64,000 bases of DNA, from NCBI RefSeq assembly GCF_001430825.1, contig NZ_CP010535.1, positions 3,390,501 through 3,454,500 of the forward strand. Reading direction: 5' to 3'. A program made the translations under genes and the position numbers. Shown piece after piece: positions 42,482-58,909 of the stretch (positions within the stretch are counted from its first letter, which is position 1; each line of letters opens with the position of its first letter). This DNA is from Sediminicola sp. YIK13 (GTDB taxonomy: Bacteria; Bacteroidota; Bacteroidia; Flavobacteriales; Flavobacteriaceae). The notes beneath the pieces were generated by a model. It did not search any database, was not told the DNA's origin, and saw nothing but the letters and a program-made list of their open reading frames with translations.

Positions 42482-42847
42482 ATGAAAACTATTAAGCTGC
42501 TCACAGCAACACTCTTTCTTTTTGTAATAAGTGCCGTTCAGGCACAAGATGCCCATGAAGATTCTATTGTTAAAGTAAAAGAATTAGGCATTACGGTAGA
42601 TAAAGTTGAAGAACTTGATACGTTGAATTGGACCGAAGTCTTTTCAATTTTCAAGGATAATAATCCGGAAGATTCTATCCAGGTATTTATTAAGATCAAT
42701 AAGTTAGAGTTAAAAAAGGATGATCTGTCCAAGATAAGGTATGATGATCTTACGCTTTCCGTAATAGGGATTTCCAAAAATCGAGAAGAATTAAAGAAGG
42801 AGATAAACGAAAAAACAATTGCACTTATCAAACACCTAAAAGAATAA
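42482..42847 (+). CDS. Small secreted or periplasmic protein of unknown function
   Basis: I do not recognise this 121-residue protein. It begins with a clear signal peptide (MKTIKLLTATLFLFVISAVQAQ) and continues with a charged alpha/beta pattern rich in Lys, Glu, Asp and Ile (for example IQVFIKINKLELKKDDLSKI). There is no cysteine, lipobox or membrane segment in the mature part. It is divergent from the two-component genes and followed by a terminator, so it is a plausible target or accessory sensor of that system; this is inferred from position only. Confidence 0.72.
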   Translation: MKTIKLLTATLFLFVISAVQAQDAHEDSIVKVKELGITVDKVEELDTLNWTEVFSIFKDNNPEDSIQVFIKINKLELKKDDLSKIRYDDLTLSVIGISKNREELKKEINEKTIALIKHLKE

Positions 42848-42873
42848 GCCAAAAGAGAACGTTTCTAGCTGAT

Positions 42874-42905
42874 AAACCCTTCGGATAATGAAGGGTTTTT
42901 CTTTT
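42874..42905 (+). terminator. Terminator after the small secreted protein
   Basis: AAACCCTTC (42874-42882) and GAAGGGTTT (42890-42898), 9 bp perfect, 7-nt loop, then T-rich sequence. Confidence 0.85.
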
Positions 42906-42964
42906 CGCTAAATTGGTTTCCGATCCGTTAAATATCCAACCTTGTGTAATTTGTTGTTAAAGAT

Positions 42965-42995
42965 TTTGCGGGCAATTTGAATTCTCCTACTTTTG
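42965..42995 (+). promoter_or_regulatory. Promoter of metK
   Basis: TTTG (42965-42968), 19-bp spacer, TACTTTTG (42988-42995): the best match in the window to the Bacteroidota housekeeping promoter. Transcription should start near 43000-43003, leaving a leader of about 160 nt before metK, at whose very start lies the SAM-II-like element. Confidence 0.78.
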
Positions 42996-43009
42996 CCCGA
43001 CAATTTGAA

Positions 43010-43081
43010 GAGGAAGGATTTGACTGATTGCAACCTCGAGTTCCGGAATTGTTCCGGATTCTTAAAATGCTAAAGCAGTTC
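43010..43081 (+). promoter_or_regulatory. SAM-II-like riboswitch (long-loop variant) in the metK leader
   Basis: The leader contains the SAM-II core in order: a short P1 5' strand (GAGG, 43010-43013, or AGG next to the core), GATTTGACTGATTGCAA (43017-43033), P1 3' strand CCTC (43034-43037), an inserted hairpin TCCGGAA/TTCCGGA (43042-43058), then TTAAAATGCTAAAGCAG (43062-43078). The pseudoknot pairing is supported by CTG at 43024-43026 with CAG at 43076-43078, extendable to five pairs. The conserved GAUUU..AUUGCAA and GCUAAAG pieces are those of the SAM-II class. The gene behind it makes SAM, so feedback is the expected role. Confidence 0.75.
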
Positions 43082-43082
43082 C

Positions 43083-43101
43083 TACTGAAGTTCTTTCAGT
43101 A
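43083..43101 (+). other. Hairpin downstream of the SAM-II-like core
   Basis: TACTGAA (43083-43089) and TTCAGTA (43095-43101) with a 5-nt loop lie just after the aptamer. The following sequence is not a U-run. It may be an expression platform element or may only space the aptamer from the ribosome-binding region 60 nt on. Confidence 0.4.
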
Positions 43102-43161
43102 AGTAAACTTCTTTACCACATTACGTCAAATCGGGTACTCAATTTAAAATGATTGAAAGTT

Positions 43162-44418
43162 ATGGCGTATTTATTCACCTCGGAATCGGTAAGTGAGGGA
43201 CACCCAGATAAAATTGCAGATCAAATAAGCGATGCGTTGTTGGACAATTTTTTGGCCTTCGACTCAGAAAGTAAAGTAGCTTGTGAGACTTTGGTTACCA
43301 CAGGACAAGTAATTCTTGCCGGGGAGGTTAAGAGCCATACCTATTTGGATTTACAGCAAATAGCAAGGGATGTCATCAATAAAATAGGTTACACTAAAGG
43401 GGAATACCAATTTAGTGGTGATTCCTGTGGGGTTATTTCCTTGATACATGAACAATCCAAGGATATCAATCAAGGTGTTGATAGAGGTACAAAAGAAGAG
43501 CAGGGGGCTGGTGACCAGGGAATGATGTTTGGGTATGCCACCAAAGAAACCGAGAATTATATGCCTTTGGCATTGGATATTTCCCATAAAATCCTCCAGG
43601 AACTGGCTTTGATGAGAAGGGAGAATAAAGAAATCACTTATCTAAGACCTGATGCAAAGGCGCAGGTGACCATAGAATATTCCAATGAAAATGTACCCCA
43701 ACGAATTGATACCATTGTAGTTTCTACACAACACGATCAATTTGATGCGGATGACGATAAAATGTTGGAAAAAATAAAAAAGGATATTATTTCCATTCTT
43801 ATTCCAAAGGTAAAGTCCCAATTACATGAGTCGTTACAAGTATTGTTCGATGATGATATTAACTACCACATCAACCCAACCGGTAAATTTGTTGTCGGTG
43901 GGCCACATGGGGATACCGGGTTAACCGGAAGAAAGATTATTGTGGATACCTATGGTGGAAAAGGTGCCCATGGAGGTGGCGCCTTCAGTGGTAAGGATCC
44001 AAGTAAGGTAGATAGAAGTGCGGCCTACGCTGCCCGTCATGCGGCCAAGAATTTGGTAGCGGCAGGAGTTGCCGATGAAATCTTGGTGCAGGTAAGTTAT
44101 GCCATCGGGGTGGTTAAGCCAACGTCCATTTATGTAGATACCTATGGTACCTCTAAAGTGAATTTAAGCGATGGGGAGATTGCTAAGAAAGTAGGAGAAT
44201 TGTTCGATATGAGGCCTTTTGCCATAGAAGAGCGATTGAAACTGCGCAATCCTATCTATTTTGAAACAGCGGCTTATGGCCACATGGGCAAAGAGCCACA
44301 AATGGTAAATAAAGTTTTTGAATCGCCCTATAATGGTAGGATCGAGAAGGAAGTGGAGTTGTTCACTTGGGAAAAATTGGATGCCATAGATAAGGTAAAA
44401 GCGGCCTTCCAATTGTAA
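43162..44418 (+). CDS. metK: Methionine adenosyltransferase (SAM synthetase)
   Basis: Enzyme of 418 residues that makes SAM from methionine and ATP. Signature motifs: [20 protein letters not shown] at the N-terminus, [12 protein letters not shown] near residue 115 and [20 protein letters not shown] near residue 270. The ATG at 43162 ([10 protein letters not shown]) fits the family; a TTG three codons upstream is not needed. Its leader carries a promoter and SAM-II-like riboswitch. It opens the long sulfur-methionine region, but its own transcript probably ends before the metY promoter. Confidence 0.97.
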
Positions 44419-44465: not shown

Positions 44466-44495
44466 CAGACCTAAAGTTCAAACACGTATTGAATA

Positions 44496-44602
44496 GTTAT
44501 CAAGAAAGGCGGAGGGATTAGACCCTATGAAGCCTTAGCAACCCTTTGCTCCAAAAGCAATGAAGGTGCTAAATTCTGCCCAATTTATGTGGGACAGATA
44601 AC
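44496..44602 (+). promoter_or_regulatory. SAM-I (S-box) riboswitch upstream of metY
   Basis: P1 strands GTTATC (44496-44501) and GATAAC (44597-44602) enclose the S-box core: AAGAAAGGCGGAGGGATTAG and the following CCTATGAAGCCTTAGCAACC, then the P3/P4 region ending GGTGCTAAATTCTGCC. The GGCGGAGGGA..GAAGCC..GCAACC string is the diagnostic SAM-I core with its kink-turn. It leads the metY-thrA fusion-metZ-type operon, so SAM should switch off sulfhydrylation and homoserine synthesis. Confidence 0.95.
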
Positions 44603-44610
44603 AAAAACAG

Positions 44611-44640
44611 GTTGCCCACGGCAACTGTCTTTTCTTTTTA
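44611..44640 (+). terminator. Intrinsic terminator of the metY riboswitch
   Basis: GTTGCC CAC GGCAAC (44611-44625) forms a perfect 6-bp GC-rich stem with a 3-nt loop followed by TGTCTTTTCTTTTT. It lies 8 nt after the P1 3' strand, so it is the likely OFF-state terminator of the riboswitch. Confidence 0.8.
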
Positions 44641-46079: not shown

Positions 46080-49000
46080 ATGTTAAAGCATTTAAAGATT
46101 AAAAATTACACCACTTACAGCGGAAGCAGTTTGGATATTTCCTTGTCCTATCAGTTATTCGGACCCGAATTGCATTCTGCCCCAATAGTCTTGGTGAACC
46201 ATGCCCTGACCGGTAATTCGGACGTGGCCGGGGAACACGGTTGGTGGTCTGCCTTAATTGGTGACGATAAGTGTATAGATACCAAAAAATATACGGTGCT
46301 TTGTTTTAATGTTCCGGGCAATGGGTACGATGGTTTTGTTATTGAGAATTATAAGGATTTTGTGGCCAGGGATATTGCCAATATCTTTTTGCAGGGCCTT
46401 GACCTGTTGGATATTAATAGGATATATGCCTTGATCGGGGGATCATTAGGGGGTGGCATCGCTTGGGAAATGGCCGTATTGAACCCTAACCTAACCGAAC
46501 ACCTGATCCCTGTTGCGTCTGACTGGAAGTCCACGGATTGGTTAATTGCAAACTGTCAGATCCAGGAACAGTTTTTGGTGAATTCCAAGCAGCCCGTACA
46601 GGATGCCCGTATGCATGCCATGTTGTGCTACAGAACCCCTGAGTCTTTTAAGGAGCGTTTTAAAAGGAGCACCAATGAAGAATTAAAGGTGTTTAATGTG
46701 GAAAGTTGGTTGCTGCACCATGGGAACAAGTTGCAGGAGCGGTTTCAATTATCGGCCTACAAACTTGCCAACCAATTATTAAAGACCATAGATGTGACCA
46801 GGGACGGAGAGGACCGCTTTATGAAATTGCAGAAGAGCGATACCAATATTCATATCATAGGGGTAGATTCCGATCTGTTCTTTACCGCAAAGGAAAATAA
46901 GGAGACCTTTAAACAATGGGCCCAGGCCAATAGCAAGGTGACCTATGGTGAAATCCATTCGCTACACGGGCACGATGCTTTTTTGATAGAGTTTGATCAG
47001 GTTCAGGAATTGTTAAAAGGGATTTTTGACCAAAATGGAGATTCCAAGAGGATAAAGGTGCTCAAATTTGGGGGGAAATCTTTGGCCAATGGGGAAGGAA
47101 TTGAAAGGGTTTTGGATATCATCACCTCCAAAGTGAAGGATGGAGAAAAAATAACAGTGGTATTATCTGCCCGGGACAAGGCTACTGACCAACTGGAGGC
47201 CATTTTGGAAAAGGCTGCCAATGGGAAGAATTATGCCAAGGATTTTGAAGCTTTTGAGAAATATCAAAGGCACACCTACAAAAATGTAGATCTGTCCAAG
47301 GAGTTTACAGAATTGGTGAAATTGTTCGAAGGGGTTTCCCTTTTGGGGGATTATAGTTCCAAGATCAAGGACCAAGTCTTGTCATATGGAGAGCTTATTT
47401 CTGCCAAACTGCTGACGAAGTTATTGGTAGGGAGAGGTGTTAAAGCCAAGTTGCTGGATTCTAGAAATTTGATAAAGACCGATGCCTCTTTTGGAGATGC
47501 CCAGGTTTTGGATGGCCTGTCCAGGGATAATGTAGTCTATGAATTTGGGAAATTGGATGCTGATTGCGTCCCTGTTATAGCTGGGTTCATTGCTTCCAAT
47601 ACCGATAATGCCACCACCACCCTGGGTAGAAACGGCAGTAATTATTCTGCTTCCTTATTGGCCAATTATTTAAATGCCGAGGAGTTACAGAGTTATACCC
47701 ATGTAGATGGGATCTTTACTGCCAATCCGGATTTAGTGCCGGATGCCAAAATTATTTCAGAACTATCCTATGGGGAGGCCAATGAGCTGGCAAATTTTGG
47801 GACGACGATCCTGCACGCCAAGACCATTATTCCGCTTATTGAGAAAAATATCCCATTACGGATATTGAACACTTTTAATGATGACAATAAGGGAACCCTC
47901 ATAAGCGCGAAAACGGATGTTGAAGGCATCAAATCACTTTCCGTCTTTGAACATATGTCACTTATCAATCTGGAAGGACGTGGGCTTTTGGGGAAAGTAG
48001 GTGTGGATGCCCGAATTTTTAGAGCTTTGGGGGATAATAAAATTAGTGTGAGCATCATTTCACAAGGATCTTCTGAAAGGGGGATCGGATTGGTAGTGGC
48101 CACGGATAAGGCTGTTTTGGCAAAAATGGCCCTGGAAAAGGAATTTGAGCACGATTTCCATTCGCAGGATATCAGTATGATCACGGTGGTGGAAGACGTT
48201 TCCATCATCTCCATTGTGGGGGAGGACTTGAGCACTTTTCACAAGCCCTATAATGCGCTGATCAAAAACCAGATAGTTCCCTTATTGTTCAACAATACGG
48301 TATCGGGGAAGAATGTGAGCTTGGTCCTAAAAAAGACAGACCTGCACAAGGCCCTTAATGTGATGCACGGCCAGATTTTCGGAATTAGTAAAAAGGTAAA
48401 TATTGCTGTTTTTGGACATGGCAATGTTGGAGGAACCCTCATTGATCAAATACTGAAATCTTCCAAAAAGATTGAAAAAAGAAATGGGATAAACCTCAAT
48501 GTTTTTGCCGTGGCAAATTCCAAAAGAGTGCTTTTTAATCCCAAGGGTGTCTCTAAGAACTGGAAGACGGACATAGTTTCCAGGGGCATGGAATACCAAC
48601 TAAAGGATGTTTTTGATTTTGCGAGGAACCATCATTTGGAAAACTTGATAGCTGTGGACAATACTGCCAATCAGGATTTTGTTGCCCATTATTTCGACTT
48701 CGTTGAAAACGGATTCGACCTGGTATCTTCGAATAAAATTGCCAATACCTTGGGATATGATTTCTATCAATTGTTACGGGAAGAACTGGATAAACATCAA
48801 AAGCAATACCTTTATGAGACCAATGTGGGGGCAGGGTTGCCTTTGATAGATACCATAAAGCTATTGCATATGTCCGGGGAGAATATCACTAGGATAAAAG
48901 GCGTTTTCTCAGGTTCTTTGAGTTATATTTTTAATACCTTTTCCGAGGAGGATGCCTCTTTTTCAAGTATCTTAAAGGAAGCAATGGATAAGGGATTCAC

Positions 49001-49466
49001 CGAGCCGGACCCGAGGGAAGACCTTTCTGGTAATGACGTGGGTAGAAAATTACTTATTTTGGCCAGGGAACTGGATCTGAGCAATGAATTTTCGGATATT
49101 GAGATCCAAAATTTGATTCCCAGTGAATTGAGGGAAGGTACAGCTTCTGACTTCTTGCAGCATTTGGAAGTGTTGGATGAAAAGTTCAAGAGTATTAAGG
49201 AGCAACAAAAACCAAACCATGTGTTGCGGTATGTGGGAGAGCTATCTGGGGACTTGCAACAGGAAAAGGGAGTCTTGCAGGTAAAATTAGTCTCGGTTCC
49301 CAAGGAAAGTGCTTTGGGACAAGTAAAAGGATCTGACTCTATCATTGAGATTTACACGGAATCATACGGTGAAAAACCCTTGGTCATACAAGGAGCGGGA
49401 GCAGGTGCGGCAGTAACAGCAAGAGGGGTGTTTGGCGATATATTACGAATTACAGAGAAAAGTTGA
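46080..49466 (+). CDS. thrA: Homoserine O-acetyltransferase-like / aspartokinase / homoserine dehydrogenase fusion
   Basis: Fusion of 1128 residues with three parts. Residues 1-320 are a MetX-like alpha/beta hydrolase with complete triad: Ser122 (IGGSLGGG), Asp265 (GVDSDLFF) and His298 (HGHDAFL), and the NHALTGNSDVAG oxyanion motif near 40. Residues about 325-770 are aspartokinase (KVLKFGGKSLANGEG, GFIASNTDNATTTLGRNGSN, ACT region). Residues about 772-1128 are homoserine dehydrogenase (NIAVFGHGNVGG, YETNVGAGLPLIDTIK, TEPDPREDLSGNDVGRK). Thus it can phosphorylate aspartate, reduce the semialdehyde and acetylate homoserine. The aldehyde dehydrogenase step (asd) is elsewhere. Product feeds metY and the following gene. 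Confidence 0.94.
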   Translation: MLKHLKIKNYTTYSGSSLDISLSYQLFGPELHSAPIVLVNHALTGNSDVAGEHGWWSALIGDDKCIDTKKYTVLCFNVPGNGYDGFVIENYKDFVARDIANIFLQGLDLLDINRIYALIGGSLGGGIAWEMAVLNPNLTEHLIPVASDWKSTDWLIANCQIQEQFLVNSKQPVQDARMHAMLCYRTPESFKERFKRSTNEELKVFNVESWLLHHGNKLQERFQLSAYKLANQLLKTIDVTRDGEDRFMKLQKSDTNIHIIGVDSDLFFTAKENKETFKQWAQANSKVTYGEIHSLHGHDAFLIEFDQVQELLKGIFDQNGDSKRIKVLKFGGKSLANGEGIERVLDIITSKVKDGEKITVVLSARDKATDQLEAILEKAANGKNYAKDFEAFEKYQRHTYKNVDLSKEFTELVKLFEGVSLLGDYSSKIKDQVLSYGELISAKLLTKLLVGRGVKAKLLDSRNLIKTDASFGDAQVLDGLSRDNVVYEFGKLDADCVPVIAGFIASNTDNATTTLGRNGSNYSASLLANYLNAEELQSYTHVDGIFTANPDLVPDAKIISELSYGEANELANFGTTILHAKTIIPLIEKNIPLRILNTFNDDNKGTLISAKTDVEGIKSLSVFEHMSLINLEGRGLLGKVGVDARIFRALGDNKISVSIISQGSSERGIGLVVATDKAVLAKMALEKEFEHDFHSQDISMITVVEDVSIISIVGEDLSTFHKPYNALIKNQIVPLLFNNTVSGKNVSLVLKKTDLHKALNVMHGQIFGISKKVNIAVFGHGNVGGTLIDQILKSSKKIEKRNGINLNVFAVANSKRVLFNPKGVSKNWKTDIVSRGMEYQLKDVFDFARNHHLENLIAVDNTANQDFVAHYFDFVENGFDLVSSNKIANTLGYDFYQLLREELDKHQKQYLYETNVGAGLPLIDTIKLLHMSGENITRIKGVFSGSLSYIFNTFSEEDASFSSILKEAMDKGFTEPDPREDLSGNDVGRKLLILARELDLSNEFSDIEIQNLIPSELREGTASDFLQHLEVLDEKFKSIKEQQKPNHVLRYVGELSGDLQQEKGVLQVKLVSVPKESALGQVKGSDSIIEIYTESYGEKPLVIQGAGAGAAVTARGVFGDILRITEKS

Positions 49467-58723: not shown

Positions 58724-58750
58724 CAGCTAGTTCATTACCAAAACTGAAAA

Positions 58751-58901
58751 CGTTATCAAGAAAGGCGGAGGGATTAGACCCAATGAAGCCTTAGCAACCC
58801 TTTTTTCAATACCCTTTCCTAGAGGGATGAACAAAGAAGGTGCTACATTCTAATCCATGTGCTGTTCCTTTTAAGGAGCGTTTAGTGCGGGAGTAGATAA
58901 C
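58751..58901 (+). promoter_or_regulatory. SAM-I (S-box) riboswitch upstream of metH
   Basis: GTTATC (58751-58756) and GATAAC (58896-58901) form P1. The first 48 bases are identical to those of the metY riboswitch but for one base, with the core AAGGCGGAGGGATTAG, AATGAAGCC and TTAGCAACCC. The P3 and P4 parts are longer and different (ending GGTGCTACATTC). It leads metH1-metH2-metF, so SAM controls homocysteine methylation. The weak AGACA/TGTCT hairpin at 58910-58923 followed by ACACTTTTCC could be the terminator. Confidence 0.94.
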
Positions 58902-58909
58902 TCAAAGAA

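Follow-up and report, generated by a model that had tools for sequence, protein, structure and literature searches.

A SAM-II riboswitch of the long-loop family before metK in Sediminicola sp. YIK13, with a predicted anti-aptamer strand conserved among its relatives

Background

How could a SAM-II aptamer act on metK, a central gene, when no intrinsic terminator lies between the two? The metK leader of Sediminicola sp. YIK13 raises this question for a whole family of bacteria, since a SAM-II switch before metK is nearly universal in Flavobacteriaceae, and we found no paper in the literature on the mechanism of SAM-II in Bacteroidota. The answer bears on riboswitch control in bacteria that make no use of Shine-Dalgarno sequences. 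The window analysed here is the whole stretch of 64,000 nucleotides that contains this leader; the leader was set against 218 distinct metK leaders, and the spread of the aptamer within the family was surveyed in one genome per genus of Flavobacteriaceae (149 genera).

A full-length RF01726 aptamer in the metK leader

A preliminary description had read the beginning of the metK transcript as a SAM-II riboswitch into which a hairpin is inserted, a reading that is supported by the Rfam family match, the promoter and the downstream gene. In the long-loop covariance scan that it had proposed (cmscan), the aptamer segment matched RF01726, 'SAM-II long loop', with 54.3 bits against a curated gathering cut-off of 44 bits (E = 1.3e-7 in the 64-kb window), and the alignment was full-length, running over model positions 1-60 of 60 (Table 1). 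The core elements lie in the right order and at the places described, with letters, coordinates and pairings correct, and the features that mark membership of SAM-II were found: a P1 helix enclosing the core, an A-rich L3, and a gene of methionine/SAM metabolism downstream. The complementarity of CTG and CAG in the pseudoknot, proposed as extendable to five pairs, is present in the sequence, the five pairs joining 43022-43026 to 43076-43080 with one G-U. Of the covariation that had been suggested as a test, the part concerning P1 came out positive, as P1 is paired in at least 99% of the 218 loci and its second pair changes from A-U to U-A in two of them, while CTG and CAG are so nearly invariant over the 218 leaders that they neither covary nor fail to covary, and this part is uninformative.

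Table 1 Features of the metK leader (positions in the window)
Feature	Position	Strand	Basis
Bacteroidota-type promoter: TTTG 42965-42968, 19 nt, -7 element TACTTTTG 42988-42995	42965..42995	+	Sequence, 218 leaders
SAM-II aptamer	43004..43083	+	Full-length RF01726 match, 54.3 bits
P1 5' strand GAGG, pairs with CCTC 43034-43037	43010..43013	+	Rfam consensus alignment
Near-invariant ligand-binding core GATTTGACTGATTGCAA (L1 triplex strand and P2 5' strand)	43017..43033	+	Sequence, Rfam alignment, homologues
CTG of pseudoknot helix P2a, pairs with CAG 43076-43078	43024..43026	+	Sequence; near-invariant across loci
24-nt insert in L3, P3-like hairpin, stem 43042-43048 with 43052-43058	43038..43061	+	Sequence, 218-locus comparison
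A-rich L3 and 3' core TTAAAATGCTAAAGCAG (P2 and P2a 3' strands)	43062..43078	+	Sequence, Rfam alignment
Spacer hairpin TACTGAA-GTTCT-TTCAGTA	43083..43101	+	Sequence, folds
Predicted anti-aptamer element A2 AAACTTCTTTA, complementary to 3' core TAAAGCAGTT (43071-43080)	43105..43115	+	Constrained fold
Predicted anti-aptamer element A1 ATTACGTCAAATC, 12 pairs with 43017-43028 around bulged C43124	43120..43132	+	Constrained fold
TACGTCA, alternative partner TGGCGTA 43163-43169 (would capture the metK start codon once A1 is freed)	43122..43128	+	Fold of spacer plus CDS, prediction only
metK, methionine adenosyltransferase	43162..44418	+	TIGR01034, 502 bits

The preliminary description had half remembered long-loop forms from Bacteroidota, and 'SAM-II long loops' (RF01726) are indeed listed, as Bacteroidetes and marine, in Table 1 of Weinberg et al. 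2010 (PMC2864571). Because the family is already catalogued there, the metK leader riboswitch is a new instance of it and not a new variant. From its sequence, the window aptamer probably binds SAM. A look-alike of another class or ligand, such as SAM-V or a SAM/SAH-type sensor, is barely credible: SAM-V likewise has a P3 stem-loop after P1 (PMC6061858) and is found in marine Bacteroidetes, but the RF01726 score is above the cut-off, the covariance-model scan of 42700-43300 gave no match to any other SAM family even at E <= 5 (none to RF01826, SAM-V), and both the core letters and the metK context agree with SAM-II. RF01726 was also the only noteworthy Rfam match in the leader region 42700-43300.

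The 24-nt insert described earlier, with its own 7-bp hairpin, was confirmed, the stem being a perfect 7 bp closed by a UUG loop. Among the 218 loci, the length of insert plus linker is bimodal (10 nt or less, or 18-66 nt), with the long form in 121 leaders and about half of the relatives lacking the insert stem. The sequences of the long inserts differ, 91% of them fold better than shuffles (z < -1.5), and some contain two stem-loops. In the crystal structure of SAM-V, a P3 stem-loop stands between P1 and the A-rich strand (PMC6061858), and the window hairpin (43042-43058) is positioned like this P3, which is a feature in common rather than a sign of membership. We read the insert as a peripheral stem that is probably tolerated, not as a new aptamer. 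Another family of the class (f3; L246-L253, L121) has an insert in its core between GATTT and GATTGCAACCAC, often hairpin-like; it belongs to the P1 loop and not to L3. Judged by eye, the P2a of this family seems to be GG/CC.

Position of the aptamer and spread among relatives

The promoter had been said to put the RNA 5' end at the base of the structure. The arrangement TTTG-N19-TACTTTTG, which fits the Bacteroidota promoter consensus, was found as described. The motif TAnnTTTG stands upstream of P1, at a distance of 12-27 nt, in 97% of the 218 leaders, whereas about 10% of control leaders have it in a 16-nt zone of equal size. Its position just upstream of P1 in so many leaders argues that the aptamer lies very near the RNA 5' end, and in the window this end would fall at about 43000, the exact start being deduced from the promoter. 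An inverted repeat, CGGGCAA...TTGCCCG, at 42969-42998 overlies the metK promoter between the -33 and -7 elements and may be an operator or due to chance.

The metK start codon, ATG, lies 78 nt after the aptamer match, and its product carries a 16-residue stretch conserved among relatives. In the family survey, RF01726 was present in 140 of the 149 genera, nearly always directly before metK. A sample of the whole phylum gave matches in 63 of 395 genomes, and the carriers in the genome scan were Flavobacteriaceae almost throughout, apart from odd MAG labels. Among the 91 loci first read, 90 were direct metK leaders, with metK beginning 42-106 nt after the match.

A spacer strand complementary to the aptamer

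Missed in the preliminary description, and the more interesting part of the leader, is a conserved strand between the aptamer and metK that is complementary to the aptamer core, with GTCAAATC (43125-43132) facing GATTTGAC (43017-43024). In a constrained fold, this octamer forms part of the longer element A1, whose partner in the core is GATTTGACTGAT (43017-43028), and the helices of A1 and A2 are nested. The unconstrained best fold of the window (-39.8) beats the A1-paired fold (-35.9) and breaks the aptamer by other pairs.

Over the 218 loci, the duplex of core and spacer has a mean energy of -17.9 kcal/mol, against -11.7 kcal/mol in dinucleotide shuffles, and reaches P <= 0.05 in 69% of them; the duplex of the 3' core and spacer is weaker (-6.8 against -5.6 kcal/mol shuffled, P = 1e-19). 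Free ensembles show core-spacer pairing (more than 4 expected pairs) in 88% of loci. The exact octamer GTCAAATC occurs in 108 of the 218 leaders, where 0.25 would be expected. The base flanking the octamer (+2) covaries with its partner (A-T 65, G-C 37, G-T 10; a fit that none of 1000 column shuffles equalled) and spacers pair better with their own core than with the differing cores of their ten nearest relatives (P = 4e-13), both tests being corrected for shared ancestry in part. Other leaders use a different register, for example GCAATC or CTTTAG. In a sister family, f2, the core has diverged and the anti-aptamer matches it (mean z -2.2, 8 loci), no anti-aptamer was seen in the f3 loci, and a SAM-II copy before metY in one relative (L012) carries AGTCAAATC. 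That GTCAAATC is a general motif of leaders was considered and rejected, as it occurs in only 0.6% of 332 control gene leaders.

The aptamer and anti-aptamer folds are mutually exclusive, and comparison of the leaders makes the alternative fold well supported. We regard the existence of an anti-aptamer switch, taken by itself, as highly probable. In the classical model for the metX SAM-II riboswitch (PMC9373788, PMC6061858), the switch works through the pseudoknot alone; applied to metK, as in translational SAM-II with P2a over the ribosome site, this would make the complementary strand a by-product, which is very improbable. P2a cannot cover a metK start that lies 42-106 nt beyond the aptamer match, and the complement is conserved and covaries far beyond chance. 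No published account of the anti-aptamer platform was found in the literature searched, which took in the main text of PMC2864571, and SAM-II goes unmentioned in a 2025 survey of riboswitch termination by RNA-seq that includes Bacteroides data. The expression platform thus appears undescribed, and the conserved anti-aptamer makes the SAM-II mechanism in Bacteroidota simply testable.

A model for the control of metK

The leader would place metK under feedback control through two mutually exclusive folds. At low SAM, the core (43017-43028) would be held by A1 and the 3' core (43071-43080) by A2, leaving the aptamer unable to form, and metK would be made. With SAM present, the pseudoknot (P1, P2 and P2a with the P3-like insert) would form, freeing A1 and A2, and the freed strand would capture the start region of metK (43122-43128 with 43163-43169), lowering translation. 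Comparison of the sequences shows the aptamer, its location close to the RNA 5' end and the conservation of the anti-aptamer; we infer the binding of SAM, the direction of the response and the capture of the start codon, and with these steps included consider the two-fold feedback model as a whole moderately probable.

Several observations point to the start codon as the target. TACGTCA in the window makes 3.9 expected pairs with the metK start. In a clade of 14 loci, TTGCTTT can pair either with the 3' core of the aptamer or with AAAGCAA ending 4-7 nt before the ATG, and the flanking pairs change. Leaders with GTCAAA favour ATGGC starts (102 of 123, versus 28 of 95 for the others; 44:6 among nearest-relative pairs) and those with GGCAT favour ATGCC (P = 4e-5), associations that may come in part from shared ancestry. 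Over all loci, occlusion of the start region by the released strands was not above that by shuffled strands (P = 0.77), and a swap test for covariation between spacer and start region was not significant against nearest relatives (P = 0.24-0.52). Pairing of GTCA with the start exceeded 2 expected pairs in only 12% of the relevant loci and is a weak prediction in most. That the post-aptamer segment pairs with the start region in general was rejected, such pairing being weaker than in shuffles except in the 14-locus clade.

The same aptamer and anti-aptamer could instead have a transcriptional output, the freed segment 43081-43132, pyrimidine-rich and poor in G, serving as a loading site for Rho, which would stop transcription before metK or early in it. 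Rho-dependent riboswitches exist in E. coli (mgtA, ribB), and no established rule for Rho sites in this phylum, the Bacteroidota, is known to us. There is no intrinsic terminator between the aptamer and metK, as would suit Rho; the sole one, at 42874-42898, comes after the preceding gene, and the spacer hairpin has no U-run and is therefore not a terminator. The spacer is also rich in C and poor in G, even where its positions have no pairing partner in the aptamer (C/G 2.03; control leaders 0.154/0.146), the shuffle and swap tests gave no sign of general selection for occlusion of the start, and most SAM-II switches elsewhere are thought to be transcriptional (PMC6061858, PMC2258182). However, a C/G bias near a gene start may merely avoid structure, and translation is favoured both by the sequestor clade of 14 loci and by the start-codon associations. 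We consider termination by Rho rather unlikely and rank translation ahead of it, with RNA decay or other outputs taking the remainder.

Capture of the start codon is thus the favoured OFF step, clear in the 14-locus clade and predicted in the window; given the switch, our judgement leans towards it. A wider proposal, which we put forward tentatively and which falls somewhat short of probable, is that this is a Flavobacteriaceae-type platform for genes without a Shine-Dalgarno sequence, in which the same strand would compete for the core and then pair with the start codon (GUCA with UGGC, or through a sequestor that copies the 3' core), the aptamer and the start site being alternative partners.

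SAM-I and SAM-II in one gene cluster

The window also holds two SAM-I riboswitches (RF00162), one before metY (44494-44604) and one before a split metH (58750-58903), in the same cluster as the metK SAM-II. Within the family survey, SAM-I was found in 117 of the 149 genomes, and comparison of the two lists gave both classes in 113. This is contrary to the 2007 survey of Barrick and Breaker, in which no species was found with both SAM-I and SAM-II (PMC2258182). After the metY SAM-I, at 44609-44640, a GC-rich hairpin (ACAGGTTGCC/GGCAACTGT) followed by a U-run, TCTTTTCTTTTT, was seen by eye and is likely an intrinsic terminator, of which the metK SAM-II leader has none; the two classes within this cluster therefore probably differ in their output.

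A second SAM-II is present in reduced genomes that lack a SAM-I match (e.g. G004). It stands before metY (L012) or before a gene upstream of metH (L242), where SAM-II seems to have taken over the place of SAM-I. In several relatives, SAM-I and SAM-II share an intergenic region, in divergent orientation and separated by a few hundred bases (G145:C192:11324-11696, G013:C21:124438-124909). Farther along the window, 46080-49466 encodes a fusion of 1128 aa, joining a MetX-like homoserine acyltransferase (about 1-320) to a bifunctional aspartate kinase/homoserine dehydrogenase (326-1126).

Comparison with known systems

The aptamer is no different from the RF01726 long loops of PMC2864571, with which it shares sequence, P1/P2 pseudoknot, variable L3 and occurrence in Bacteroidetes; the main text of that article gave no description of an anti-aptamer platform. 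With SAM-II RF00521 (Alphaproteobacteria and the metX metagenome switch) the leader has the H-type pseudoknot in common, but the reported RF00521 switches use an intrinsic terminator or P2a over a Shine-Dalgarno sequence and the window has neither, its metK being 78 nt off. The metX SAM-II core, GAUUU...UUGCAA / UGCUAAA-like, resembles that of the window. SAM-V (RF01826) shares a P3 stem-loop that follows the P1 3' strand and precedes the A-rich L3 (PMC6061858), but it differs from the window in P1 and P2 lengths and in its core, and the window has no RF01826 match. There is a likeness in principle to the anti-aptamer platforms of SAM-I and similar switches, in which a platform strand also competes with the aptamer; in the window, this strand would act without a terminator and attack a SAM-II pseudoknot, in two parts.
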